Virus record (IMG/VR): IMGVR_UViG_3300030329_005371
Span: 1 to 64,000 of that record
Reading direction: 5' to 3' (one strand)
Length of the DNA stretch: 64,000 nt
DNA from: a virus
Shown here: positions 9,425 through 59,284 of the stretch, piece after piece
Numbering within the stretch: the stretch's first letter is position 1
Layout of the letters: every line of letters starts with the position of its first letter
Position numbers and translations under genes: made by a program
The notes under the pieces: model-generated
Seen by the model: only the letters and a program-made list of their open reading frames with translations
Database searches by the model: none
What the model was told of the DNA's origin: nothing

Positions 9425-10150
9425 ATGAGAAAGTTATTTGCTTTATTGATGGGATTGATGGTTTCGACTACGGCATTGGCGAATCCTCCCGGAGACTTCC
9501 AAACAGTATCTATTGAGGAAGGCTTAAATAAAAACGAGAAAAAGGTAAGAGAAGCCGCTGTCAAGATTACTGACGGATATGGTCATGGTTCCGGCAGCAT
9601 TATAAAATACTATGATATGCAATTGGTCTTAACCGCGCAACACGTAGCAAGTGGGCGCATAGGAAGCGAGTATCTTGTTATCAACGGCAATACCTTAGAC
9701 AAAGCCATATTGGTATACGCAGATCCGTTAAATGACATTGCTGTATTGTGGATGCGGCCCGGCAATCAATTAGAAGGAAGAGGTCTTAAATATAGCCCAA
9801 GAGAAGAGCTAGCTCCCATCGGCGCGGCAATTACTTACTCTGGGCACCCATCGTGGCACAGTTTAATGACATATCGTGGCTACGTAGCGGGCGTGGAGAC
9901 TCTTCCTGGCGCAGGGCCACAGCTTATGCTTAATACTTATGGATGGTTCGGCTGCAGTGGTTCTGTTATTTATGATACAAGTGGGAATATTGTTGGTATA
10001 CTATGGGGAGTCGATATAGAAACACGACCAGACCTTCAAGTTCAGGAAAATATGATTTGGGTCTCCCCAATTCAAAACTTAAACATGAAGCTTGCTATCA
10101 AAGAATTATGTATTGCTCTCGAAGATGAGCCTAAAGCATGTAGAAAATGA
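9425..10150 (+). CDS. Secreted trypsin-like serine protease
   Basis: A 241-aa protein with a clear signal peptide (MRKLFALLMGLMVSTTALAN, cleavage after about residue 19) and a chymotrypsin/HtrA-type catalytic triad: His73 in TAQHVA, Asp104 in LNDIAVL, Ser178 in GCSGS. It lacks a PDZ domain. It is predicted to act in the periplasm, for example on envelope proteins during infection. SD AAGGAG sits 9413-9418. It overlaps the Nudix gene by ATGA, so both are translated together although one is exported and the other is cytosolic or virion-bound. The GCSGS nucleophile loop differs from the usual G(N/D)SGG. Confidence 0.85.
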   Translation: MRKLFALLMGLMVSTTALANPPGDFQTVSIEEGLNKNEKKVREAAVKITDGYGHGSGSIIKYYDMQLVLTAQHVASGRIGSEYLVINGNTLDKAILVYADPLNDIAVLWMRPGNQLEGRGLKYSPREELAPIGAAITYSGHPSWHSLMTYRGYVAGVETLPGAGPQLMLNTYGWFGCSGSVIYDTSGNIVGILWGVDIETRPDLQVQENMIWVSPIQNLNMKLAIKELCIALEDEPKACRK

Positions 10151-10596
10151 CCAAATGGGGCAAATTTCTCACCGAAGGTGAGTTAAAAACAGTAGGAGTT
10201 GTTGTTTGTCTTAACGATAAGCAACAATTTCTTGTTATTAGGCGTTCTGATATTGATGACCGAGAGGGTCAATGGACTATACCCGGAGGCCATATTGATG
10301 AAAAAGATAGTTCTATTGAAGCAGGGGCTGTTAGGGAACTCAAAGAAGAGACAAATTTAGTCTGTAAAACGTCTGATTTAACATATTTAGGCGAACCTAA
10401 GAAAGAAAAGTTCTATTTTTTGACTCAAAAATGGTCGGGGGACGTAAAAGTGGACAAGCCCAATCCAGAAACTGGAGAAATTGAGCACGATGACTGGAAA
10501 TGGCTTACAATTGAAGAGATAAAAGAGATAGAGAATAGTGAAATTCCGATCTATTTATTGGAGAAAGCGCTTGAGATCTCCAAAAATGATGACTGA
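10147..10596 (+). CDS. Nudix hydrolase with capsid-targeting-like N-terminus
   Basis: A 149-aa Nudix protein. The Nudix box runs from GGHIDEKDSS (about 47) to RELKEETNL (63-71), with the metal-binding RExxEE intact; the first Glu of the consensus is displaced. Nudix enzymes cleave nucleoside-diphosphate-linked substrates (NDP-sugars, NADH, ADP-ribose, capped RNA); the substrate here is unknown. The N-terminus MTKWGKFLTE is a short variant of the W-x-K-(F/Y)-L-x-E leader found on the following genes, so it may be packaged and cleaved after Glu10. Coupled by ATGA to the protease gene. Confidence 0.85.
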   Translation: MTKWGKFLTEGELKTVGVVVCLNDKQQFLVIRRSDIDDREGQWTIPGGHIDEKDSSIEAGAVRELKEETNLVCKTSDLTYLGEPKKEKFYFLTQKWSGDVKVDKPNPETGEIEHDDWKWLTIEEIKEIENSEIPIYLLEKALEISKNDD

Positions 10597-13255
10597 CGAA
10601 GAAATTTTACAAAAAGCAACACTTTTACTTGAAAAAATGAGCAAAAAATCGCCAAAAAAACGCGGTTTTGGCCAAGGAACGCCTCCGAAAGGCGAATTTT
10701 ATAAAAAACAAGACATTTATCTTGAAGAAGATATCCTTCGTGAAATTTCGGACACCGAATTTAGAGGTGTTGAAGCAATTTTACAAAAAATTGCCGATAA
10801 CCCAGAGGGAGTTTTGGCTTTTGACAAACTTTTTGGCGATAAAACGCGCATTGTCATACCATTTCCCGTAAAAGATAACTCCTCGGACCTGGGCCAATGG
10901 GTTTATGAACTTGAGCAAAACTTAGAAGTTCAACCTGACTACGAAAAAGGCATGCTTTCAATAGATAGAGAGTGGGAAGACCACGATCGACCAATCGATG
11001 ACGATATGGACCGCTTGTGGGGCTCTGGAAAGCGGCCAAAAAAGATAAAAAAGAAGCTTCAAATGAAAATTGGTAGATATTTTACCAAATTAGACGAATT
11101 AGTAAAAGAATATCACGCCTTAAGAACAAAAATTGTTGAACGATCCGATGATTATATAATAGATGATATTGTAGATGTACCAGGGATGAGAATTACCACC
11201 GGAGAAGAAGAAGAACACTTAGATAAACAAGAATTAAAGAAACTTAACAAACTTCGCAATAGTTTAGAGTTGTATATGGGAGGGGCTTCCTCTGGAGGGG
11301 TGGCAAAATACATTTTAACCCCTCAACAGAAGGCGGAATGGGCAGATAATGAACAAATACGTCGAGATAGACAAGATAAAGAAGACGCGCGCCGCGGAAG
11401 ACCGGTGCGCAAAAGAAAACCAATAGTTACTCCTGATACTGGCTTTAAGATAATGGGTAATTATTGGGTAGATAACGCAAAATATGTCAAAGAAAACATA
11501 AATGATCTGGAAAATGACAAATATTCTATTATTTTAACGCGCCACCCCGTTGATGTTATGAGAATGTCAGATTTTGACAAAATAACATCTTGTCATACAC
11601 CTCCAAGTCGTACTGGAGGAGAACAAAGCTACTATAAATGCGCAGTTGCTGAAGCTCAGGGCCATGGAGCGATCGCTTATGTGGTAGAAACTGAAGAATT
11701 GCTCTCGCAAACAAACACAGGCAACATCGAAAGTGCTGAACAAGAACTTGAAGAGTACGATGAGATTTTTTCAGAGCAAAATCGCTATCTTCACGGTACT
11801 AACTTAGATTTAGACCCAGTTGCTCGAACAAGATTAAGACAACTTCGTTATTTTCGTGATTTTGACGGAAAAGAGGAGCCATATGGCAAAGAACTCGCAG
11901 TTCCCGAAAAGTTTACCTATGGTTTAGACATTCCTGGTCTTGTGAGCACAGTAACAAGATGGGCGAGAGAAAAACAAGAGAATTTGTTCGACAAACTACC
12001 AAGAAAGGATGGGAAAATTAATTTAGATAATTTCGAAATCTATGGAGGCTCTTATGAGGACACTTCTGGTGTTACTGGTCGAAAAGAGTTGATGATGAAT
12101 TTGACAAAGTTTATGAGCAGTGATTTTATAGGAGCAGTTAAACAAAACCTTGAAACCGAAAATGATATGCCTCCTGAATGGGTCGGAGACATTGGTGCGC
12201 TTCTTAAGCGTGAGTGCTCAGTGGTTACAGAAGAGTGGAATCCTAAATACGCTAATTGTAAAGTAGATTTTTATGTCAAAAATAACGGTAACAATGATTG
12301 GTATATTTATCCAGAAGGCAAGTTGATGCTTACATGGGATGTGTCAGAATGGAAGCAACTTCCTAATGTAATAGCTGGTCAAGACATTGCCGATTATTTA
12401 AACCAATCTTATTTTGACCCAGAAAATGCTTCGGGTGATCTGTTCGATGACGACAAAGGAGCAATTTATCGCGGTGGAACAGAAGAGCATCCAGAAATTG
12501 TTTGGCGTTGTGAATTTAACAACAAATTAGTGCCCGGGATGGGCGGCGAAGAGATAGTTTATGATGCAGACGGATTTAAGCATTTTTGTAAAGGCGTCGA
12601 TCAGTTGGACGACAAACGAGACACATTCCAGGCGATTGTAGAACAATTTGCCAAATCGCAAGGCTGGCTCGAAGGTCACGCTTATATGAGCTTAGCGCAG
12701 AAAATCGAGAATAACGAGATTGGCGCCTATGAATGGGATGTAGAATACGACAAAGAGCATTATACTGAGTCATACGAAGCATGGGCTACAATATCTTATG
12801 ATTTTGATCCCGAAGAATTGGGAATTGAGCCAAGGATTTTGTTTGATCTCGTAGATCGTAGAGAGTTTGCGCTTCGTCTTAGGGGATACTTAACTGCGCA
12901 GGCTAGAGAAGACACAGGCGGCGAATATTGGCTCTCTATACGCGATAAGAGCGCAGTAGAAGTTGGAGGCGAAGTTCGCTATAGTATAACTTTTAAAGTA
13001 GACGCAGACACCCCTGATGACCTTGTGGCGCAGTTTTATGAACTGGTTACGGGAGAGATGGATGATGAAGACGAAATTGCGAAGGCATTTATGGGCGCTT
13101 TACGAGAAGAAGCAGCAAAAAATGGCGTTAAACTTAGCAGGTCGAGTCCGGGGTCCGAAAAAGCTCGCGACTTTGATGCGCTTCAAGATCTAGGCGAGAA
13201 CAAACAATACAATGCTGACTATTTAGTTAAAACGTGGAAGAGGTTTATTCTATGA
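10586..13255 (+). CDS. Large hypothetical protein (about 890 aa)
   Basis: A very large acidic protein starting MMTDEEILQKATLLLEKM at 10586 or 10589, inside the Nudix gene end. It has Lys-rich N-terminal segments, a Cys/His-containing motif (ITSCHTPPSR ... YYKCAVAEAQGHGAIAYVV, near residues 335-370) and several alpha/beta stretches towards the C-terminus. I do not recognise the family. Size and position among capsid-targeted genes suggest a virion protein (inference). The C-terminus ends ...YLVKTWKRFIL, a match to the W-(R/K)-x-(F/Y)-L leader seen at the N-termini of its neighbours. It overlaps the next gene by ATGA. Confidence 0.75.
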   Translation: MMTDEEILQKATLLLEKMSKKSPKKRGFGQGTPPKGEFYKKQDIYLEEDILREISDTEFRGVEAILQKIADNPEGVLAFDKLFGDKTRIVIPFPVKDNSSDLGQWVYELEQNLEVQPDYEKGMLSIDREWEDHDRPIDDDMDRLWGSGKRPKKIKKKLQMKIGRYFTKLDELVKEYHALRTKIVERSDDYIIDDIVDVPGMRITTGEEEEHLDKQELKKLNKLRNSLELYMGGASSGGVAKYILTPQQKAEWADNEQIRRDRQDKEDARRGRPVRKRKPIVTPDTGFKIMGNYWVDNAKYVKENINDLENDKYSIILTRHPVDVMRMSDFDKITSCHTPPSRTGGEQSYYKCAVAEAQGHGAIAYVVETEELLSQTNTGNIESAEQELEEYDEIFSEQNRYLHGTNLDLDPVARTRLRQLRYFRDFDGKEEPYGKELAVPEKFTYGLDIPGLVSTVTRWAREKQENLFDKLPRKDGKINLDNFEIYGGSYEDTSGVTGRKELMMNLTKFMSSDFIGAVKQNLETENDMPPEWVGDIGALLKRECSVVTEEWNPKYANCKVDFYVKNNGNNDWYIYPEGKLMLTWDVSEWKQLPNVIAGQDIADYLNQSYFDPENASGDLFDDDKGAIYRGGTEEHPEIVWRCEFNNKLVPGMGGEEIVYDADGFKHFCKGVDQLDDKRDTFQAIVEQFAKSQGWLEGHAYMSLAQKIENNEIGAYEWDVEYDKEHYTESYEAWATISYDFDPEELGIEPRILFDLVDRREFALRLRGYLTAQAREDTGGEYWLSIRDKSAVEVGGEVRYSITFKVDADTPDDLVAQFYELVTGEMDDEDEIAKAFMGALREEAAKNGVKLSRSSPGSEKARDFDALQDLGENKQYNADYLVKTWKRFIL

Positions 13256-14001
13256 GTGATAAGATGTTAATGGAAAATTGGCGGAAGTATTTGCTGGAAA
13301 GTCCGAGATACGGGGAGGCTTCTGTAGTCGACATTTCACCAGAGGCGCGCCGTCAGGCTTTTCAGCGACAGCAAGCGGGCGCAGATGTTCAGTCTTTTAG
13401 CGATGCTTTGGCATCAATTTATGGTGATGAAGAACCATCAGATCCGTGGTCTGATCGTGAGGATTATGAAGCAGGCGACACAGAACTCGCAGAGCGGACG
13501 ACCGGCCCAACTGTTGCAGAATTTCTACAATTTTTACGAAATACAACTCAGCGAGAGAAAGCAAAAGGAATATCGTCTGACTTATTGGATTTTGCGACAG
13601 GTGTTATAACTGGTGGTTATGAAAAGTTTATTCAGGCTGCTGCTAAAGCTGCGCATGATGATAAATCTATTTTAAAAGGTGATTATAAAGATAATCCTTA
13701 TTTAGCCTATATTGATTTTGATCCAAAGTATGAACAGATACTAAGGCCACAAATTTTTGATAATTTTCTAGAAGATCTTCCAAACGCTTTGGGTGCACTT
13801 TCAAAAAATTCGGTAATGCCCGATCTTGACGAACTATTACGAAGATATGTTCTTGCTAACTATGATATATCCCTTCCGAAAGTAGCTCGTGCATCAGAAG
13901 ACTGGAGCTTAGTAGGATGGGAATATCGCCGTGGAAAATTTAATGAATCCAAATTCCACGACAACTGGCGCAACTTTCTGCTCACCGAGGAAAAGTTATG
14001 A
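13252..14001 (+). CDS. Capsid-targeted-type protein, unknown cargo (249 aa)
   Basis: Starts MSDKMLMENWRKYLLE at 13252 (ATGA overlap), carrying the full leader motif with a possible (L)-x-E cleavage after Glu16. The body is acidic and mostly helical with no enzyme motif. The C-terminus ends HDNWRNFLLTEEKL, a second copy of the leader-like motif including L-x-E. A longer reading from 13234 would add six residues before the leader and is not favoured. Probably a virion-internal protein (inference). Confidence 0.75.
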   Translation: MSDKMLMENWRKYLLESPRYGEASVVDISPEARRQAFQRQQAGADVQSFSDALASIYGDEEPSDPWSDREDYEAGDTELAERTTGPTVAEFLQFLRNTTQREKAKGISSDLLDFATGVITGGYEKFIQAAAKAAHDDKSILKGDYKDNPYLAYIDFDPKYEQILRPQIFDNFLEDLPNALGALSKNSVMPDLDELLRRYVLANYDISLPKVARASEDWSLVGWEYRRGKFNESKFHDNWRNFLLTEEKL

Positions 14002-14744
14002 AGCTCCTAATAGAGGGCTGGCGCAAATTCTTAAAAGAAGAAAAGCTTATTAAGGAAGACATGGGCGATTACTACGACACGCTTTCTGAAGATGACCTTT
14101 ACGATCTTGACATTGAAGAATTGTTGGACCTGAGAGATTTTATCGAAGACTTTGGTGGGCCCGGGCCACAGAGCGACCCAAAGGATTTATACCCTACTAT
14201 TATGGCTCGCATTGAAGCGATTGAGGACGAAGAAGATCATGCGCCTCCACCAGACCGCAAAATCGAAGGTCTTTATGACGGTGAGTTTGCTATGAGGCTG
14301 CTGAAGGCATTTTTCTCCAGTGCCAACTCGGGCATTGAACTCGCATCGATGATACCCGGAGCAGAAAGTCTGTCAGAAGAGTTTAGTCGTATCCGAGGTC
14401 ATGTCGTAAGATTGGTTGAATATGCAGAAGACGGTAATGACTATCCATGGTTGACTATTGATGAAACTGAGGAGCACCCAGATGTGTTGACCAACGATGT
14501 ACGAATGCTGCTTATACAGATGATAGGCACTGCGTTTGAGGGAGAGATGGACGAGGAACAAAAAGAAGTTATATCCGGGTATCACAATTGGATTGATTCT
14601 ATGCACAATCTTAAGGACTATGCTTCTTATGACCTACACGGGAAAAAAAAGGCTGGGTATCCTCCGTCGCGCGCGGCTTCTGGAATGTATAAGAGATACG
14701 AATATGCTTACGAATTTCTTAAAGATTGGGTAGGTGGCGAATGA
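13998..14744 (+). CDS. Capsid-targeted-type protein, unknown cargo (248 aa)
   Basis: Leader MKLLIEGWRKFLKE (cleavage possible after Glu14), then a very acidic body rich in Asp/Glu with helical segments and a hydrophobic helix near 95-125 (LLKAFFSSANSGIELASMI). No enzymatic motif seen. ATGA overlaps on both sides show tight translational coupling in the cargo operon. Confidence 0.75.
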   Translation: MKLLIEGWRKFLKEEKLIKEDMGDYYDTLSEDDLYDLDIEELLDLRDFIEDFGGPGPQSDPKDLYPTIMARIEAIEDEEDHAPPPDRKIEGLYDGEFAMRLLKAFFSSANSGIELASMIPGAESLSEEFSRIRGHVVRLVEYAEDGNDYPWLTIDETEEHPDVLTNDVRMLLIQMIGTAFEGEMDEEQKEVISGYHNWIDSMHNLKDYASYDLHGKKKAGYPPSRAASGMYKRYEYAYEFLKDWVGGE

Positions 14745-15379
14745 AACTCTTAATGGAAAATTGGCGGAAGTTCATCTCAGAGGGCATGAAAACTGTCGAT
14801 GATCTTGTGAGCTTTGTGGATGAAGAATATCCAGAATATCAAACCGACTTATATGTTCGCATCCGCAAGGAGGATGACGGCCCCGGTATTGACTTTACTT
14901 ATGCTTTTATTGATGAAAGCGGAGAAGTTCTTGATCTCGGCTGGAATGATGCTTTTGATGGTAAAGTTACAATCGTGCCGGCGTGGGAGCTTCCTGACGA
15001 TGGTCCTTGCGCAGGAGCATATCAAGTCAAATGGGCCTCTGCGAAACGTGGGTGGGGACCATTGCTTTATGATGTGGCAATGGAATATGCTACAATGCAC
15101 GGAAATGGTCTTATTGCGGATCGTGAAGAAGTTTCAGATCAAGCGCGACCGATCTGGGATTATTATTTAAGCAATCGCGGAGATGTTAAAAGTCACCAGC
15201 TTGATGACAAACACAATACACTAACGCCAGATGTAGAAAAGGACAATTGTGATCAGTATATTGCTAGTCTTGGAGGCAAATACAACTGGCAAGAAAACGC
15301 TCTAAGTAAAAGATACACAAAAGAGCCTACAACTATGGCCGAACTAGAAAAATTAGGGAGGCTTATGAACGAGACATGA
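14741..15379 (+). CDS. Capsid-targeted GNAT-like acetyltransferase
   Basis: Leader MKLLMENWRKFISE, then an alpha/beta domain of about 190 aa. The segment KRGWGPLLYDVAMEYATMHG followed by GLIADREEVSDQARPIWDYY resembles the acetyl-CoA-binding loop-helix and following strand-helix of GNAT-type N-acetyltransferases. If injected it could modify a host protein or small molecule early in infection (inference). The start at 14741 is set by the leader and the ATGA overlap; an upstream reading from 14726 is not favoured. Confidence 0.7.
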   Translation: MKLLMENWRKFISEGMKTVDDLVSFVDEEYPEYQTDLYVRIRKEDDGPGIDFTYAFIDESGEVLDLGWNDAFDGKVTIVPAWELPDDGPCAGAYQVKWASAKRGWGPLLYDVAMEYATMHGNGLIADREEVSDQARPIWDYYLSNRGDVKSHQLDDKHNTLTPDVEKDNCDQYIASLGGKYNWQENALSKRYTKEPTTMAELEKLGRLMNET

Positions 15380-16392
15380 AACTCTTAATGGAAAATTGGC
15401 GGAAGTATTTGACGGAAGATATTACTGTCGATCTAGAAGGCCCTACCGGCGCCATGCCGCCGCATCTGCTTCGCAAGCAAAAACGACAAAAAGACGCGCA
15501 AGATCTATTAAAATCTATGGGATTTTCTGTTCACAGAGAACTTGGTAGAGGCGCCTTTGGTGTAGTATATGAAGTTGAGAATAGCACAACAGGCGAGCGC
15601 TCGGCGGCTAAAGTTGTGTCAGATGAAAGTACGCGCGAGATAGAAAACTACAAGTTTGCTATGGAAGAAAAAGCTTTTATGCCAGAAAAATACGCTAAGT
15701 ATCTTCCCAATGTTAAACAGCTTATAACTGGTGGCGGAAGCACTATAATTTTAATGGAATTGCTTGAACCACTTGATCCGCAAACAGCGCAAGAGCTTTT
15801 CGCAGCACAAGATGCCCCCACTGTATCGAAAAAAACAGAAAGAATCTTAAAAAATCCCGAAGCAGTAGCCGAGATAGTCGAGAAAGCCATAGAACACAAT
15901 ACAATTTTAGATCAAATAAGATTAACTCCAGAACAATATTCAGAAATTACGAGTGTTGCCGTAAACGCGGCGACTCAATCACCACATTCAGATGCTGACG
16001 AGCTAATAAATACGATCTATGGTGCCGTAGTAGGAACGTCTACTTTTCAAAGCGTTGTGGGGAAGGCATTCGTCCCTGCGACCTCTATAGCTTTTGAGAA
16101 GGCGTTAAAAGATACTATTCTATATTATTTTGATAAACAAATTGTTCCCGTTCACCAGCCAAAGCCCGGTGACGAAGAGTCTGATCGCGGATACTGGACT
16201 GGACCCTCTCTTGAAAAAGTAGAAGGCATGTTTCCAGAAGCAGAAGGCTTAATGAGTGCGATGAAATATTTTATGCAAGATAAAGGGTGGCGGCCGAAAG
16301 ATGTACATATAAAGAATGTTATGCGTAGACCAGATACTAAAGATTTCGTTATTGTAGATCTCGGACTATTTAAAAGAGGTATATACCAATAA
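15376..16392 (+). CDS. Capsid-targeted protein-kinase-like protein
   Basis: Leader MKLLMENWRKYLTE, then a kinase-like fold. The glycine-rich loop is LGRGAFGVVYEV (56-67) with Lys79 in AAKVV and an ILMELL hinge-like strand. Near the C-terminus are a catalytic-loop equivalent, DVHIKN (Asp309, Asn314, spaced as in kinases), and a metal-binding DLG at 328-330. About 130 helical residues sit between hinge and catalytic loop, and the chain stops 8 residues after DLG, so the usual C-lobe after the activation loop is absent. The key ATP- and metal-binding residues are present, so activity is plausible. Cargo of the packaged set; targets unknown. Confidence 0.8.
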   Translation: MKLLMENWRKYLTEDITVDLEGPTGAMPPHLLRKQKRQKDAQDLLKSMGFSVHRELGRGAFGVVYEVENSTTGERSAAKVVSDESTREIENYKFAMEEKAFMPEKYAKYLPNVKQLITGGGSTIILMELLEPLDPQTAQELFAAQDAPTVSKKTERILKNPEAVAEIVEKAIEHNTILDQIRLTPEQYSEITSVAVNAATQSPHSDADELINTIYGAVVGTSTFQSVVGKAFVPATSIAFEKALKDTILYYFDKQIVPVHQPKPGDEESDRGYWTGPSLEKVEGMFPEAEGLMSAMKYFMQDKGWRPKDVHIKNVMRRPDTKDFVIVDLGLFKRGIYQ

Positions 16393-21434: not shown

Positions 21435-21772
21435 TGTCAGTTATTGACCACATTGCCATACTTGTAGACGATTTAGAGGTCGCAGAAGAGTGGTATACCG
21501 GAAAATTAGCCGGAAAAGTGACTTTTCGCGACTCAAAGTATATTAGAATGACTGTTTCGAACACAAATATCGCTTTAATTGATAAAAATCACTATCCATA
21601 CGCACATTTTGGTATTTTAGTCGAAAAAAAGGAAGATTTGCCGTTAGAAATGGGCGAAGTGGTCTATCATCGCGATGGAACGACTGGGGTTTACGTAAAA
21701 GACCCATTTGGAAACTATTTAGAGTATATTTGCTACTGCGATGAAGAAAAAGAGGTATTTTTAAGTGATTGA
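21431..21772 (+). CDS. VOC (glyoxalase/dioxygenase-fold) protein
   Basis: A 113-aa single vicinal-oxygen-chelate domain: VIDHIAILVDDLEVAEEWY at the start, HFGILVEKK in the middle and VYVKDPFGNYLEYICY at the end, the classic beta-alpha-beta-beta-beta halves. VOC proteins include glyoxalases, dioxygenases and antibiotic-resistance (fosfomycin, bleomycin) proteins. His7, His59 and Glu102 could form a metal site. Substrate unknown. Start ATG 21431 or 21434; it overlaps the next gene by 8 nt. Confidence 0.8.
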   Translation: MMSVIDHIAILVDDLEVAEEWYTGKLAGKVTFRDSKYIRMTVSNTNIALIDKNHYPYAHFGILVEKKEDLPLEMGEVVYHRDGTTGVYVKDPFGNYLEYICYCDEEKEVFLSD

Positions 21773-22781
21773 CGTTTTAAAAGGCTTAATTAGACAATTT
21801 ATGCCGTTTGCGCAAGAAAAAATGGGCTTTGATCGACCTCCTAAGCTATTTTTGCGTGATGATCCGCAAAATGCGGCAAATCCGCTTGGAAAAACCGGTT
21901 TTTATGACCCAGAAGCCGAATCTGTCACTTTATACACTACTGGACGTCACCCAAAGGACATTATGCGCTCTTTGGCGCACGAATTGATGCATCATACGCA
22001 AAAATGTAATGGAGACTTTGACAATGTGACAACTATGGGCGAAGAAGGCTATGCGCAGAGCGATCCGCACATGAGAACGATGGAAATTCAAGCATACCAA
22101 GCATCTATTGTGTTTAGAGATTGGGAAGACAGTACAAAAGGTACTATTTACTACGAACATTTACAAAAAGGAGATAAAAGTTCAATGTCTACAAAAAATT
22201 GGAAAAACGGGGAATTAAAAAGTCTCCTGAGTGAAGCCTGGGGTTTTAAGATGGATCTCAGTAATTTTGGAAAGCTGGAGGAATATTCTGCTTCAGGCGT
22301 TGATCGCGGGCCCGGCGATGATCCAGAGGAAGAGAAAGAAGCCAAGCAAGAAACTGAAGGTGAAGAAACAAGCAAGCGCGAAGAAGAGGGGCTTGATGAA
22401 GCACATGATAAAGATTGGGGCATGGGTAAAGACGAAGATTCTCGTACCCGTCCCGGAGAGAAGGATTATACTGGGCACAAAGGTGATGAGTCTCACACCC
22501 ATCCCGGCGAAGAAGATTATGAAGGTGGCGCTGAGCGTCCTGAAGATCTCGCGCAAGAGTTAATGGACTTAGCGCAACGAATGAGTGATGCTGTAGGCGC
22601 TTCAGATGAAGTTGAAGAACTTGAAGAGGGAGAAGGCGATCGAGGAGATAAAGATCGCGAGCAAGGTAGGGACGCAGGAAGAGAGCACCGTGCTGATTCT
22701 AGCGGCAAAGGCGTAAGCGAAGCACAAGTCCGTCGCATCATTGCCAAGGTTCTTAAAGAAAGACGCAAGAAAGGAAAATAA
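21765..22781 (+). CDS. Zinc metallopeptidase fused to a scaffold-like acidic domain
   Basis: GTG-started 338-aa protein. Residues 1-135 form a compact domain with AHELMHH (HExxH at 72-76), a downstream EIQAY Glu candidate for the third ligand, and DPEAESVTLY before it: a metallopeptidase layout. Residues 141-338 are quite different, being acidic, charged and disordered-to-helical and ending KVLKERRKKGK, like a prohead core protein. Between them lies AAGGAG (22168-22173) followed by an in-frame ATG at 22185, so the second half may also be made separately. A protease with an overlapping scaffold would parallel lambda C/Nu3 (inference). Confidence 0.72.
   Translation: MIDVLKGLIRQFMPFAQEKMGFDRPPKLFLRDDPQNAANPLGKTGFYDPEAESVTLYTTGRHPKDIMRSLAHELMHHTQKCNGDFDNVTTMGEEGYAQSDPHMRTMEIQAYQASIVFRDWEDSTKGTIYYEHLQKGDKSSMSTKNWKNGELKSLLSEAWGFKMDLSNFGKLEEYSASGVDRGPGDDPEEEKEAKQETEGEETSKREEEGLDEAHDKDWGMGKDEDSRTRPGEKDYTGHKGDESHTHPGEEDYEGGAERPEDLAQELMDLAQRMSDAVGASDEVEELEEGEGDRGDKDREQGRDAGREHRADSSGKGVSEAQVRRIIAKVLKERRKKGK
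22168..22187 (+). promoter_or_regulatory. Internal ribosome site and in-frame ATG
   Basis: AAGGAG at 22168-22173, an 11-nt spacer and ATG at 22185, in frame within the metallopeptidase gene (codon 141). The product would begin MSTKNWKNGELKSLLSE and be about 198 aa, acidic and helical. The spacing is slightly long for an SD. Confidence 0.45.
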
Positions 22782-22784
22782 ATC

Positions 22785-24842
22785 ATGGGTGGTGCCGCTG
22801 GGCATATGAATCACCCATTCGATTTAGATTGGGTTAAAAGCGGTTCTGACCTCTTAGATTTTTTCAATCGAGCCAAAGCCTTTGTTGAAGAAGCAAGAGG
22901 AGGGAGCGTCAAGATTGACGGCGTAAACGTGTCTTTTAAGGTGGTAGAGACGCCTAATGGGCATGAGTTTGCTGTCGACCGTGGCTCTATGAAAGAAATT
23001 GACATTAGCGGAATTACCGTTGATAGATTTGCTGAAAGATTTCCGCCTGGACACGGTATGCGCAGATTTGTTGCGCAACTTTTAACCATTCTTAATGCTG
23101 CTCTCGGCGATGTAGAGCCAGAACTTAAAGCTCTGGGTATGTGGGATGATCCATCCATGTTCCTTAACACTGAATATGTTGAAGGTAAAACTAACGTAAC
23201 TCAATACGATGAGAACTTTCTTGCTATTCATGGTTTAAATCAATTCTATCAACGCGTAGCAAAGTCAGGCGCCAGTAAAGGAAATGTTCGGCCCGGCGCG
23301 GAGCGTCCAACAATGGTCAATCCTAAAAACGGCAAAGAAGTCCCTATTAAAGATCCTAGCCGAGAAGTTTCCTATGACCCAGCAGTCATGGCTCGTTTGA
23401 TTGAAAAATTGCGCCCTTACGGAGAAGAATATGGATTTCAGATTTATGGTGATGTTCCGACAGAAACTATGGCAGACGTAGATTATACCGGTGCTTTATC
23501 GGAGCCTTTATCTATTAAAATCTCCGATGATCGAACAATTAAAAAATCTCTAGGCGAGTGGCTCCAAGAAGCACAAAATCCTGGCTATAGAACCTTGAAA
23601 GTCCGCATACAAGACGGTGACTCGGAACGAATGATGAGTTGGCACCCTCTCCACAAAGATCTTTATAAAGCACTTTCTAGCGGAGAACATGCGGTTGTTG
23701 ATATGGTAGACGAACAAGACGCCGCAGATGCCATTTATGGCACCGTATTTATGCACGCCGCACGAATGCTTGGAAATGAAATGTTAAGGGCCTTAACCAG
23801 CCCTATGGGTGATGTAATCAACCACGAAGGAGTTGTGCTCCGAGACGAGGAAACATTCGGTACCACCAAACCTGTTAAAATTACAGGCGAGTTTATTGTC
23901 GGCGGAACGGCATCCGATTTTCAGAAAGCGAGTGGGGCCCCAGTTATTATGAAAGAGCAAGAAGAAGACGAAGATCCCGTTGTTGATATCGAATTTGAAG
24001 ATGAGCCAGTACAAGGCGAAACAGTCGCGATTGTTCCTGGCGCTTTCAAGCCCCCGCATATGGGACATCTAGATATGGTTGAAAGATATACTCAAGACGC
24101 CGATCGAGTTGTCGTTTTGATCTCTGCTCCTACTAAAAGTGGTAGAAAGTTACCAAATGGTCGGGAAATTACAGCAGAAGATTCAGAAAAGATTTGGAAT
24201 CTATTTGTAGGTTCCAATCCAAAAGTAGAAGTTTATAAATCCTCTCATGCTTCCCCGATTAATGCTGCCTATGAGATAATTGGCAAAAGTGGTTTGCGCG
24301 AAAAGGTTGCTGAAAATATGGGCATGGATCCGATCAGCGCGGGAGACACAGTTATTTTAGGCGCCAGCAATAAAGGCGGCGATGCTGCCAGATGGACAGG
24401 TGCTGAAAAATACGTGGGAGAAGATTTGAATCTGGTTCCACCGATGGAGAGCGCTGTTGAGCCTTTAAACCGCCCTAACGGAGAGCCATTTAGCGCCACA
24501 GATATGAGAAATCTTTTAGGAGATATTCTCGCCAACAAAGAAGCATTACAAGATTTCGCTGGTGACAACGTTGATGGTGTTTTACAAATTTTAGGCGTAC
24601 AAGGCCTAGAAGAAATGTCAAGTGCCGGCGGCTCTGGAGGACGCTCCAGTTCAGTCCAGGGCGCCGTGGCGTCAGGGGGCGGACCATGGCAACATAGTAA
24701 TATTAAAAAAGATAACGAAGAAGAAAAAGAGCGCTCTAGACTTGTCACAAGAGGTCCATTATCTCCGAAAAAAGAAAATATTGATTTAAGCACGGTTGAT
24801 GAAGTTATGAGACTAATTATGGAAAGAGGCATTCTACAATGA
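22785..24842 (+). CDS. Ligase-type nucleotidyltransferase fused to HxGH nucleotidylyltransferase
   Basis: A 685-aa protein in two enzyme-like halves. The N-terminal half has VKIDGVN (KxDG at 43-46; Lys43 would be the AMP/GMP-carrying residue), then HEGVVLRD (motif IV-like, about 347-354) and PVKITGEFI (motif V-like), the order seen in polynucleotide ligases and capping enzymes. After an acidic linker (about 385-410) comes VPGAFKPPHMGH (HxGH, about 416-427) with an FSATDMR element further on (ISSTxxR equivalent), as in NMN/phosphopantetheine/CTP-type adenylyl- or cytidylyltransferases. Neither substrate can be read from sequence. It sits between the scaffold-like gene and another helical protein, overlapping the next gene by ATGA. 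Confidence 0.72.
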   Translation: MGGAAGHMNHPFDLDWVKSGSDLLDFFNRAKAFVEEARGGSVKIDGVNVSFKVVETPNGHEFAVDRGSMKEIDISGITVDRFAERFPPGHGMRRFVAQLLTILNAALGDVEPELKALGMWDDPSMFLNTEYVEGKTNVTQYDENFLAIHGLNQFYQRVAKSGASKGNVRPGAERPTMVNPKNGKEVPIKDPSREVSYDPAVMARLIEKLRPYGEEYGFQIYGDVPTETMADVDYTGALSEPLSIKISDDRTIKKSLGEWLQEAQNPGYRTLKVRIQDGDSERMMSWHPLHKDLYKALSSGEHAVVDMVDEQDAADAIYGTVFMHAARMLGNEMLRALTSPMGDVINHEGVVLRDEETFGTTKPVKITGEFIVGGTASDFQKASGAPVIMKEQEEDEDPVVDIEFEDEPVQGETVAIVPGAFKPPHMGHLDMVERYTQDADRVVVLISAPTKSGRKLPNGREITAEDSEKIWNLFVGSNPKVEVYKSSHASPINAAYEIIGKSGLREKVAENMGMDPISAGDTVILGASNKGGDAARWTGAEKYVGEDLNLVPPMESAVEPLNRPNGEPFSATDMRNLLGDILANKEALQDFAGDNVDGVLQILGVQGLEEMSSAGGSGGRSSSVQGAVASGGGPWQHSNIKKDNEEEKERSRLVTRGPLSPKKENIDLSTVDEVMRLIMERGILQ

Positions 24843-27646: not shown

Positions 27647-27983
27647 GGGAGCGAAATGGCTTCGACAGGGTAAGGATGAAGTCGAGTGCAAGTAGGTAAG
27701 ATACAACCTTAATAGTTCAAAACAATAGTTGCAAATAACAACACACACTTCGAAGCAGCTCGCTTAGCGGCTTAATCGAGGAGGCTGATTAGAGCCTTCT
27801 ATCCAATCTAATCAAAATAACAGACAAGTTATAAAAATCAAACTATTTATCGCAACAGGGTGGTAAGCGATATCTTATAGCCATCTATCTTTGTCAATAG
27901 GTGATAGTAAATTGACTAAGCTTGTGAATGACTTGCCTTTTGAGGTATCGTGGACGCGGGTTCGACTCCCGCCGCTTCCACCA
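27647..27983 (+). ncRNA. ssrA: tmRNA (transfer-messenger RNA), one-piece
   Basis: Complete one-piece tmRNA of about 337 nt. The 5' GGGAGCG (27647-27653) pairs with 3' CGCTTCC (27973-27979), followed by discriminator A and encoded CCA (27981-27983). The T-arm GCGGGTTCGACTCCCGC is canonical and the 5' part carries GAAATGGCTTCGACAGG. The tag frame opens at the resume codon GCA (27731) and reads ANNNTHFEAARLAA then TAA (27773-27775), ending in the LAA degron that ClpXP-type proteases recognise. It would rescue stalled ribosomes and tag nascent chains. No SmpB gene is seen in the window, so host SmpB would be required. Confidence 0.93.
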
Positions 27984-33566: not shown

Positions 33567-34067
33567 ATGACAGTCCATCCAGATATGTTTAATGATAAAA
33601 AAGAAAAACCAACTGTAATGGTATCAGGCGGCTTCGATCCCGTCCATGCCGGCCATATTCGAATGATTAGAGATGCTGCTAATTTTGGAGATGTCATTGT
33701 TATAGCTAATTCTGATCAATGGCTTTTTCGGAAGAAAGGGTTTGTATTTATGACTTTTGAGCAGCGAGCAGAAATTCTTAACGCAATTAAAGGTGTTATC
33801 TTGGTAGATTCTGTAGATGATACAGATGGTACAGTCTGCGAAGCAATTCGAAGACTTAAGCCTGATTTTTTTGCAAATGGAGGCGATCGTGGACGCTCTA
33901 ATACGCCAGAACAGTCTGTTTGCGAAGAATTGGGAGTTAAATTATTATGGGGTGTAGGAGGAGATAAAAAACTTGCTAGTTCTTCTGATTTGGTACAGAA
34001 TGTTAGAGATTTTGAACAGTCTTTGGCTCCTCCGGTCCGAACCTCTACAAAACATTCTGATAGATAA
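33567..34067 (+). CDS. Cytidylyltransferase-type nucleotidyltransferase (HldE/RfaE C-terminal-like)
   Basis: A 166-aa protein with VSGGFDPVHAGHIRMIRDA (HxGH, residues 18-36), DVIVIANSD, and a downstream FMTFEQRAEIL segment, as in HldE C-terminal and glycerol-3-phosphate cytidylyltransferases. These make ADP-heptose or CDP-alcohol from sugar phosphate or polyol phosphate and NTP. It likely adds to activated-sugar supply. It shares an operon with the PMM gene; the downstream promoter lies just past its stop. Confidence 0.85.
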   Translation: MTVHPDMFNDKKEKPTVMVSGGFDPVHAGHIRMIRDAANFGDVIVIANSDQWLFRKKGFVFMTFEQRAEILNAIKGVILVDSVDDTDGTVCEAIRRLKPDFFANGGDRGRSNTPEQSVCEELGVKLLWGVGGDKKLASSSDLVQNVRDFEQSLAPPVRTSTKHSDR

Positions 34068-58501: not shown

Positions 58502-59284
58502 ATGAACATTGACGAAAAAAAGAACATAATTATTAATTGGCTAAAGTCCTATTCGCAAGATAGCGATAGAATTTTTGTTGTTGGCGTATCGGGAGGTATT
58601 GATTCTGCTCTCACATCGACTTTGTGCGCCGAAACTGGCATTCGTACGATGGCTGTATCGATGCCTATATATCAGCAATCCTCGCAACTAGACAGGGCCC
58701 ATGCTCATATCGCATGGCTTAAAGAAAACTATGAGAATGTGGAAGATACAGAAATCGATTTAACATTTGCTTTTTATTCATTTAAGAATATGCTCCCTGG
58801 CGAGTTTAAAAGTGAATTAGGGCTGGCAAATACTAGATCTCGCCTTAGAATGCTCACTTTATATCAGGTTGCGTCTTCTATCGGCGGCTTAGTGATAGGA
58901 ACCGGCAACAAGGTAGAAGACTTTGGAGTTGGCTTCTATACAAAATATGGCGATGGTGGTGTAGACTTAAGTCCTATAGCAGATTTAATGAAGTCTGAAG
59001 TGAGAGAGATGGCATCGTTACTAGGAGTTTCACAACATATCATTACGGCGCCCCCCACTGATGGGCTGTGGGAAGATCATAGGACCGATGAAGAGCAAAT
59101 CGGCGCTACGTACGAAGAATTAGAATGGGCTATGAATTATATCGATTCCTATATCAACACTGAAACGCCCCCAGCCCCCACAACGCGCCAACAAGAAGTA
59201 TTAAAGATTTATAATGAATTTCATAGGACAAACTCTCATAAGATGAGACCTATACCAGTTTGTACATTTAAGGAGCAAAAATGA
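58502..59284 (+). CDS. nadE: NAD synthetase
   Basis: A 260-aa ammonia-type NadE: VVGVSGGIDSALTST (PP-loop, Ser30-Ser35), LANTRSRLRMLTLY, GTGNKVEDFGVGFYTKYGDGG (deamido-NAD site) and PTDGLWEDHRTDE. It amidates nicotinic-acid adenine dinucleotide to NAD using ATP and ammonia. No glutaminase domain. In this cluster it may keep NAD available for the several NAD-dependent sugar enzymes, or may counter host NAD depletion (both inference). Confidence 0.93.
   Translation: MNIDEKKNIIINWLKSYSQDSDRIFVVGVSGGIDSALTSTLCAETGIRTMAVSMPIYQQSSQLDRAHAHIAWLKENYENVEDTEIDLTFAFYSFKNMLPGEFKSELGLANTRSRLRMLTLYQVASSIGGLVIGTGNKVEDFGVGFYTKYGDGGVDLSPIADLMKSEVREMASLLGVSQHIITAPPTDGLWEDHRTDEEQIGATYEELEWAMNYIDSYINTETPPAPTTRQQEVLKIYNEFHRTNSHKMRPIPVCTFKEQK

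Follow-up and report, generated by a model that had tools for sequence, protein, structure and literature searches.

Why should a phage join, in one polypeptide, a domain carrying the motifs of a ligase-type covalent nucleotidyltransferase and a nucleotidylyltransferase of the HxGH class, and would such an enzyme travel in the phage head? The question is raised by a 685-residue open reading frame with an ATG start (22785-24842, plus strand) in a 64,000-nucleotide stretch of DNA of a marine T4-like phage, referred to here as the window, which comprises positions 1 to 64,000 of IMG/VR record IMGVR_UViG_3300030329_005371, a 102.6-kb viral contig that is probably a fragment. A sequence-only reading had picked out KIDGVN, HEGVVLRD, VKITG, GAFKPPHMGH and FSATDMR, and the translation confirms all of them in that order within the single reading frame. 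The interval between VKITG and GAFKPP, which had been put at about 65 residues, is actually about 50, which changes nothing, and a further segment that the reading had passed over, FLNTEYVEG, lies at the position of motif III. These motifs are not chance resemblances, since the Pfam CTP_transf_like match passes its cut-off, residues are invariant in 59 relatives, and sequence searches found more than 380 related stretches in viral contigs.

The two domains of the window protein

The layout of the gene is as follows.

22785..24842, plus strand: putative bifunctional gene, with a ligase-like domain, an acidic linker, an HxGH domain and a C-terminal helical tail
22800..22823, plus strand: GHMNHPFD, residues 6-13, N-terminal signature of the ligase-like family, invariant or near-invariant
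22911..22928, plus strand: KIDGVN, residues 43-48, motif I; K43 is the predicted nucleotide-binding nucleophile, and K, D and G are conserved in 59 of 59 relatives
23160..23186, plus strand: FLNTEYVEG, residues 126-134, motif III position (E130); N128, E130, N137, Y141 and H149 are invariant
following FLNTEYVEG, plus strand: NFLAIHGL, residues 144-151, motif IIIa position
23823..23846, plus strand: HEGVVLRD, residues 347-354, motif IV (E348, G349), conserved in 58 of 58
23874..23894, plus strand: VKITGEF, residues 364-370, motif V (K365), conserved in 58 of 58
24015..24605, plus strand: HxGH nucleotidylyltransferase domain, residues 411-607, from Pfam PF01467, VIA Z-scores and the family profile
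24039..24068, plus strand: GAFKPPHMGH, residues 419-428, HxGH motif, from the Pfam match
24489..24509, plus strand: FSATDMR, residues 569-575, NMNAT-type motif [IMLFV]-S-x-x-x-x-R; R575 is invariant
24795..24839, plus strand: C-terminal helix VDEVMRLIMERGILQ, conserved within the clade

Pfam and PHROG scans of residues 1-400 matched no family, and the Pfam RNA_ligase model (PF09414) found nothing in the window record; the control was detected in six genomes. The N-terminal 380 residues were modelled with AlphaFold2 from a 24-sequence alignment (pLDDT 88.9, pTM 0.85), and the KIDG of motif I sits in a strand-turn-strand context in this model. T4 RNA ligase 1 was ranked first by Foldseek against the PDB, at an E-value of only 0.01 with the other matches no better, and aligned in VIA with a Z-score of 8.1 over 176 residues at 4.1 Å, a value of about 8 being graded ambiguous by the tool itself. 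Because such a score is ambiguous when taken alone, the ligase-type assignment relies on the motifs together with the uniformity of the VIA list: all 50 matches listed are covalent nucleotidyltransferases, and they include Naegleria RNA ligase, T4 Rnl2, trypanosome REL1, a fungal tRNA ligase and DNA ligases.

The conservation pattern is in keeping with this assignment. In 59 non-redundant relatives, which span two clades sharing less than 20% identity, the residues K43, D45, G46, N128, E130, N137, Y141, H149, E348, G349, K365, T367, G368 and F370 are invariant, so that the charged residues of the superfamily in motifs III (E130), IV (E348) and V (K365) are all present, and the GHMNHPFD segment is conserved almost as strongly as the nucleophile lysine. 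The second lysine of motif V is replaced by T367 (K-I-T), a threonine found in 58 of 58 sequences, and we have not filed the domain as either Rnl1 or Rnl2 because the KxK of motif V is absent (K365-I-T367). The sequence leaves only 42 residues before K43, and the N-terminal Ia domain of the LigA type, which gives bacterial DNA ligases (LigA) their NAD specificity, is absent. A PDB sequence search with the profile of this domain returned only non-significant matches, among them LigA at motif I, and was set aside. A pattern search of GTDB genome contigs gave 13 matches; none was confirmed as a relative, and hence no cellular homologue was found by pattern. We infer that the domain is an RNA-ligase-type covalent nucleotidyltransferase in which a lysyl-nucleotide would be expected on K43, whose place in the pocket is judged purely from motif order and secondary structure.

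The C-terminal half is clearly an HxGH adenylyltransferase. It matches Pfam PF01467 (CTP_transf_like) above the cut-off, Foldseek also supports the HxGH fold, and the best VIA Z-score, 15.1 over 150 residues at 2.4 Å, is to PPAT structures, with NadD (13.3) and NadM (12.9) slightly below. Evidence from structure and from profiles is split over the substrate. It is improbable, in our estimate, that the enzyme acts on something other than NMN or NaMN (phosphopantetheine, FMN, or a phospho-alcohol with CTP) within a module unrelated to NAD; the superior VIA score of the PPATs speaks for this, as does the fact that the phmmer matches of the domain are mostly PPATs, whereas the family profile finds the NMN adenylyltransferases MJ0541 (8e-11) and NadM (5e-8) ahead of the first PPAT (5e-6). 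PPATs, moreover, have an SSSxxKE motif, in place of which the window protein has the S-x-x-x-x-R of FSATDMR, with an invariant arginine. Since the profile lies nearest to the NMN adenylyltransferases and S-x-x-x-x-R stands where SSSxxKE would be expected, NMN or NaMN is the favoured substrate, without certainty. The predicted structures, the comparison of folds, the conserved residues and, as described below, comparative genomics together support the proposal that a ligase-type KxDG domain is fused here to an HxGH nucleotidylyltransferase.

The window also contains a second, stand-alone HxGH nucleotidylyltransferase gene (33567-34067, plus strand; PF01467, E 4e-12), and a stand-alone HxGH gene occurs near the ligase/HxGH locus in several relatives. 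An NAD synthase-like gene (58502-59284, plus strand; PF02540, E 4e-46) lies within a run of glycosyltransferase- and epimerase-like genes; it was rejected as a conserved pathway partner, being found in 1 of the 16 relatives tested.

Pairing of the domains and the DUF6267 family

To describe the partnership we classified each of 66 distinct ligase-domain reading frames, uncut by contig ends, from the fetched viral contigs. Fusions in the ligase-HxGH order account for 32 and fusions in the HxGH-ligase order for 25, the latter within polyproteins that can reach about 1,500 residues; in a further eight an HxGH gene lies within 200 bp of a separate ligase-domain gene. Stand-alone ligase genes that adjoin HxGH genes include those of contigs L200, L206, L215 and L197. 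A single reading frame has no visible HxGH partner, giving 65 of 66 paired, a figure from which diverged, partnerless ligase domains could be missing, the relatives having been gathered with the window protein and its family as query; even so, a search with the ligase half alone retrieved the majority of the swapped-order cases. The ligase-like and HxGH domains are therefore a near-obligate module of T4-like phages, present as a fusion, a reverse fusion or adjacent genes, and that the pairing persists whichever domain comes first speaks for a common pathway.

Several freshwater polyproteins (L017, L032, L054 and L076, about 770-1500 residues) begin with a tag and the HxGH domain and mostly end with the ligase-like domain. 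They also hold GNAT-, ParB- and zinc-ribbon-like modules together with repeated L/I-x-E motifs, and it is possible that they are packed as polyproteins and cut into many enzymes.

A distant sister of the ligase-like family was found in DUF6267 (PF19782). A Methylophilales phage protein containing KWDGAP matches this Pfam family (E 4e-105), and its gene precedes a tagged HxGH gene, with one small gene (about 390 bp) between them. DUF6267 is present in 462 phage records, mostly of T4-like cyanophages, and the HxGH gene in 533 phage records. In the regions that we opened, DUF6267 is immediately upstream of the HxGH gene in S-CAM9, P-TIM40, S-H9-1, S-RIM14, P-RSM4 and S-SZBM1, and is not directly upstream of it in S-CRM01 and S-SSM7. 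The window domain does not match the PF19782 model at an E-value of 10; hhalign aligns the two families with a score of 34.6 (P 0.0011), where reversed and shuffled controls score 14.6-18.8, and the register places HMNHPFD on HLEHLED and KxDG on KWDG and yields the common signature H-[LM]-x-H-x-x-D. DUF6267 is itself fused to an HxGH domain in contig L167 and in a 728-residue protein of phage metaG-MbCM1; the BFVD structure matches of the ligase domain include a 728-residue metaG-MbCM1 protein, which we connect with this fusion by the identity of phage and length. From these sequence comparisons the window ligase family and DUF6267 appear to be distant sisters, best kept as separate families. 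We considered whether protein 139 of S-SZBM1, a 48-kDa virion protein, might be DUF6267; the gene order rules this out and makes DUF6267 the product of gene 141.

So close a coupling invites the idea of one linked reaction, in which the HxGH domain would make a dinucleotide (NAD or similar) for use by the KxDG domain, either as an adenylyl donor, in which case the partner would recycle the released NMN, or as a group that becomes attached to RNA or protein. Near-obligate coupling, repeated fusion and several arrangements are what a shared intermediate would lead one to expect. On contig L008 (2-2110), furthermore, a DUF6267 domain precedes an HxGH half 78% identical to that of the window, and the pairing is kept there though the ligase-type domain has been swapped; this contig may represent a domain swap or an assembly chimera and, being a single contig of 4.2 kb, is not relied upon. 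We nonetheless regard a linked reaction as unlikely: the 42 residues before K43 leave no room for an Ia domain, and jumbo phages have HxGH genes where DUF6267 went undetected. We gave up the argument from these jumbo phages, since the ligase domain finds a structural match in PA5oct.

Tags, protease sites and the head-cargo setting

The sequence-only reading had also placed the gene in a head or cargo region. In T4, head proteins carry a short N-terminal capsid targeting sequence, after which the protease gp21 cleaves at L/I-X-E (PMC9026906). A comparable pattern is found around the window gene, as follows.

13264..16389, plus strand: run of genes with MKLLxENWRKxLxE at the N-terminus, starting near 13264, 14004, 14747 and 15382
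18941, 19390, 19602 and 25633: further N-terminal copies of MKLLxENWRKxLxE
21765..22781, plus strand: metallopeptidase-like gene upstream of the bifunctional gene (weak Pfam DUF6647; by-eye comparison)

At least eight window genes bear this tag or a close variant, and in seven of the eight copies listed here it is followed by [LI]-x-E; a similar tag is present at the C-terminal ends of two window proteins (at 13220 and about 13970), and the tag recurs in relatives. Judged by these sequences, it resembles a capsid targeting sequence peculiar to this clade, ending in a cleavage site of the T4 type. The tagged window proteins include one that is kinase-like, one that is 5'-deoxynucleotidase-like and others of no assigned kind, and a Nudix hydrolase (10147-10596, plus strand; N-terminus MTKWGKFLTEGE) is another possible tagged cargo enzyme.

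Among the relatives of the bifunctional protein, [L/I]-x-E stands directly before the GG at which the ligase domain starts in 42 of 42 distinct upstream contexts, including L014, L191, L196 and L216 from the architecture class of the window; the only other context consists of a GTG start. The window protein itself begins M-GGAAGH, with neither a head-targeting tag nor an N-terminal L/I-x-E. DUF6267 behaves likewise, untagged copies beginning M-AKNTHLEHLED and some tagged copies reading YLNE-AKNTHLEHLED. An I-M-E inside the C-terminal helix VDEVMRLIMERGILQ is a possible, non-universal protease site. A T4-type prohead protease of the S77 family is encoded by three of the four relatives tested. 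Models for prohead protease, portal and major capsid protein gave no match in the 102.6-kb window record, an uninformative result, as the record is a fragment and the controls were silent too.

The reverse fusion of Microcystis phage Mel-JY01 is encoded no more than about 14 kb away from terminase, prohead protease and capsid genes. Virion proteomics has detected an HxGH homologue in particles of S-CREM2, S-SZBM1 and S-SCSM1 (PMC10665884, PMC9146016, PMC9602691), detections that concern homologues of the HxGH half only; a passage of the S-SCSM1 paper (PMC9602691) cites S-CBWM1 as a further case. The virion proteins listed for S-SZBM1 include its tagged HxGH protein (gene 140) and do not include its untagged DUF6267 protein (gene 141).

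These observations bear on a plainer explanation, that the NMNAT and RNA ligase provide ordinary metabolic support, being made during infection and acting outside the virion. The missing tag of the window protein would fit such a role, as would the cyanophage DUF6267 and HxGH genes, which adjoin replication genes (primase-helicase, MazG). The 42 of 42 protease-type sites in relatives, the tagged neighbours in the window, the head-gene surroundings in Mel-JY01 and the HxGH homologues detected in virions all point the other way, and we think metabolic support of this kind a doubtful account. The ligase/HxGH module is instead probably head cargo of T4-like phages, and the window copy is likely to be so by the company of its tagged neighbours. 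Of the original placement in a head or cargo region, then, the tagged neighbours and the prohead-protease site in most relatives with upstream sequence largely bear out the general setting; the window copy itself is untagged.

Other features of the locus may be recorded here. In Flavobacterium phage immuto, gp88 (L083:7128-9851) joins an HxGH domain to a domain homologous to the window metallopeptidase-like gene (21765-22781). A single reading frame in another contig (L216:4533-7181) runs by eye from a metallopeptidase-like part through LLME-GGAAGH into ligase-like and HxGH domains, an apparent fusion. The window also carries a tmRNA gene (27647-27983, plus strand; tag ANNNTHFEAARLAA), found by ARAGORN and by Rfam RF00023, and the record beyond the window seems rich in tail-like and baseplate-like genes, as read from the ORF list.

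Proposed function and relation to known systems

Our best explanation, held with about even confidence, is that the window protein is a bifunctional enzyme, combining a ligase-type domain that forms a lysyl-nucleotide on K43 with an HxGH domain of the NMN/NaMN type, and that it belongs to a host-takeover module of T4-like phages which is packed in the head and acts early. K43 would take up a nucleotide, most likely from ATP, as there is no room ahead of it for an NAD-specific Ia domain, and the HxGH domain would make an NAD-type dinucleotide from ATP, supplying or restoring NAD. The module would belong to a set of proteins that are packed in the head and enter the host along with the DNA, and both domains would most likely act during the opening minutes of infection, with the ligase domain sealing or modifying RNA ends in the same response; the joint outcome would be that RNA and NAD are kept functional, or that host molecules are modified. 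What the analysis shows is the gene, its predicted folds, the conservation, the coupling, and the tags and protease-type sites of relatives; that either domain is catalytic, on which substrates, that the window copy is packaged and that the two domains serve one role are inferences.

Several results weaken this bifunctional explanation. The Z-score of the ligase domain, 8.1, is ambiguous, its Foldseek E-values are at least 0.01 and the second lysine of motif V is missing; the window protein is untagged and the DUF6267 of S-SZBM1 is absent from the virion list; PPAT structures rank above NMNAT, and an NAD synthase partner is present in only 1 of 16 relatives. The family-wide loss of the motif V lysine could also mean that the KxDG domain is a dead ligase fold, a nucleotide sensor or RNA binder that positions or regulates the HxGH enzyme, a reading to which we give the least credence because the nucleophile lysine and the charged residues of motifs III, IV and V do not vary in either of two very distant clades. 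A speculative extension, which we would not expect to hold, is a self-contained two-step enzyme carried in the head: a dinucleotide made by one domain would serve the other, as donor or as tag, in sealing, capping or marking RNA or protein of host or phage upon injection, and the DUF6267 pairs of hundreds of cyanophages would be its version split into two genes.

The analysis proposes that an unnamed phage family, and by extension DUF6267, consists of ligase-like covalent nucleotidyltransferases, and gives a partner and a virion-cargo setting to the 'cytidyltransferase/NMNAT' that recurs in cyanophage virions without a settled explanation. If the bifunctional reading is correct, T4-like marine phages would inject two enzymes at once, one for RNA ends and one of the NAD type, and one cargo would link two common outcomes of bacterial defence, RNA cleavage and NAD loss. 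The sequence-only reading had allowed that the family might already be characterised in a different role; the sister family DUF6267 is still listed as of unknown function, and the pairing is absent from the papers found. In the open-access full-text literature we found RNA-ligase repair systems, and neither a ligase-like-HxGH module nor any mention of DUF6267.

The closest known parallel is the DUF6267 gene with its adjacent 'cytidyltransferase' in T4-like cyanophages, where, as in the window, a KxDG protein is paired with an HxGH enzyme and often a head-targeting tag; there the two are mostly separate genes, unlike the window fusion, and Pfam gives DUF6267 no function. The N-terminal domain resembles T4 RNA ligases 1 and 2 in its predicted core fold, at a borderline score, and in the order of motifs I, III, IV and V, and differs from them in having one motif V lysine, an additional N-terminal GHMNHPFD, a fused HxGH domain and no PF09414 match. 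NadM, NadR and NadD, including the phage NadM and NadR enzymes, have the HxGH core and S-x-x-x-x-R in common with the window protein, but in the known phage fusions NadM or NadR is joined to a Nudix or a P-loop kinase domain (PMC7824862, PMC9503650), whereas here the partner is ligase-like. The T4 internal head proteins and Alt are targeted by a CTS and injected, and relatives of the window protein are likewise tagged, with L/I-x-E before the mature domain; these are different enzymes, however, and the window copy itself is untagged. Polyvalent proteins (Iyer et al., 2017) are multi-domain, virion-linked effectors, as the freshwater relatives with GNAT-, ParB- and zinc-ribbon-like segments may be, and a search of that paper's text (PMC5512222) turned up no polyvalent protein that includes an HxGH nucleotidylyltransferase or a ligase domain. 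The parts of the window protein are of known kinds; what appears to be new is the ligase-like family, along with its relation to DUF6267 and the pairing of the two enzymes in a cargo module.
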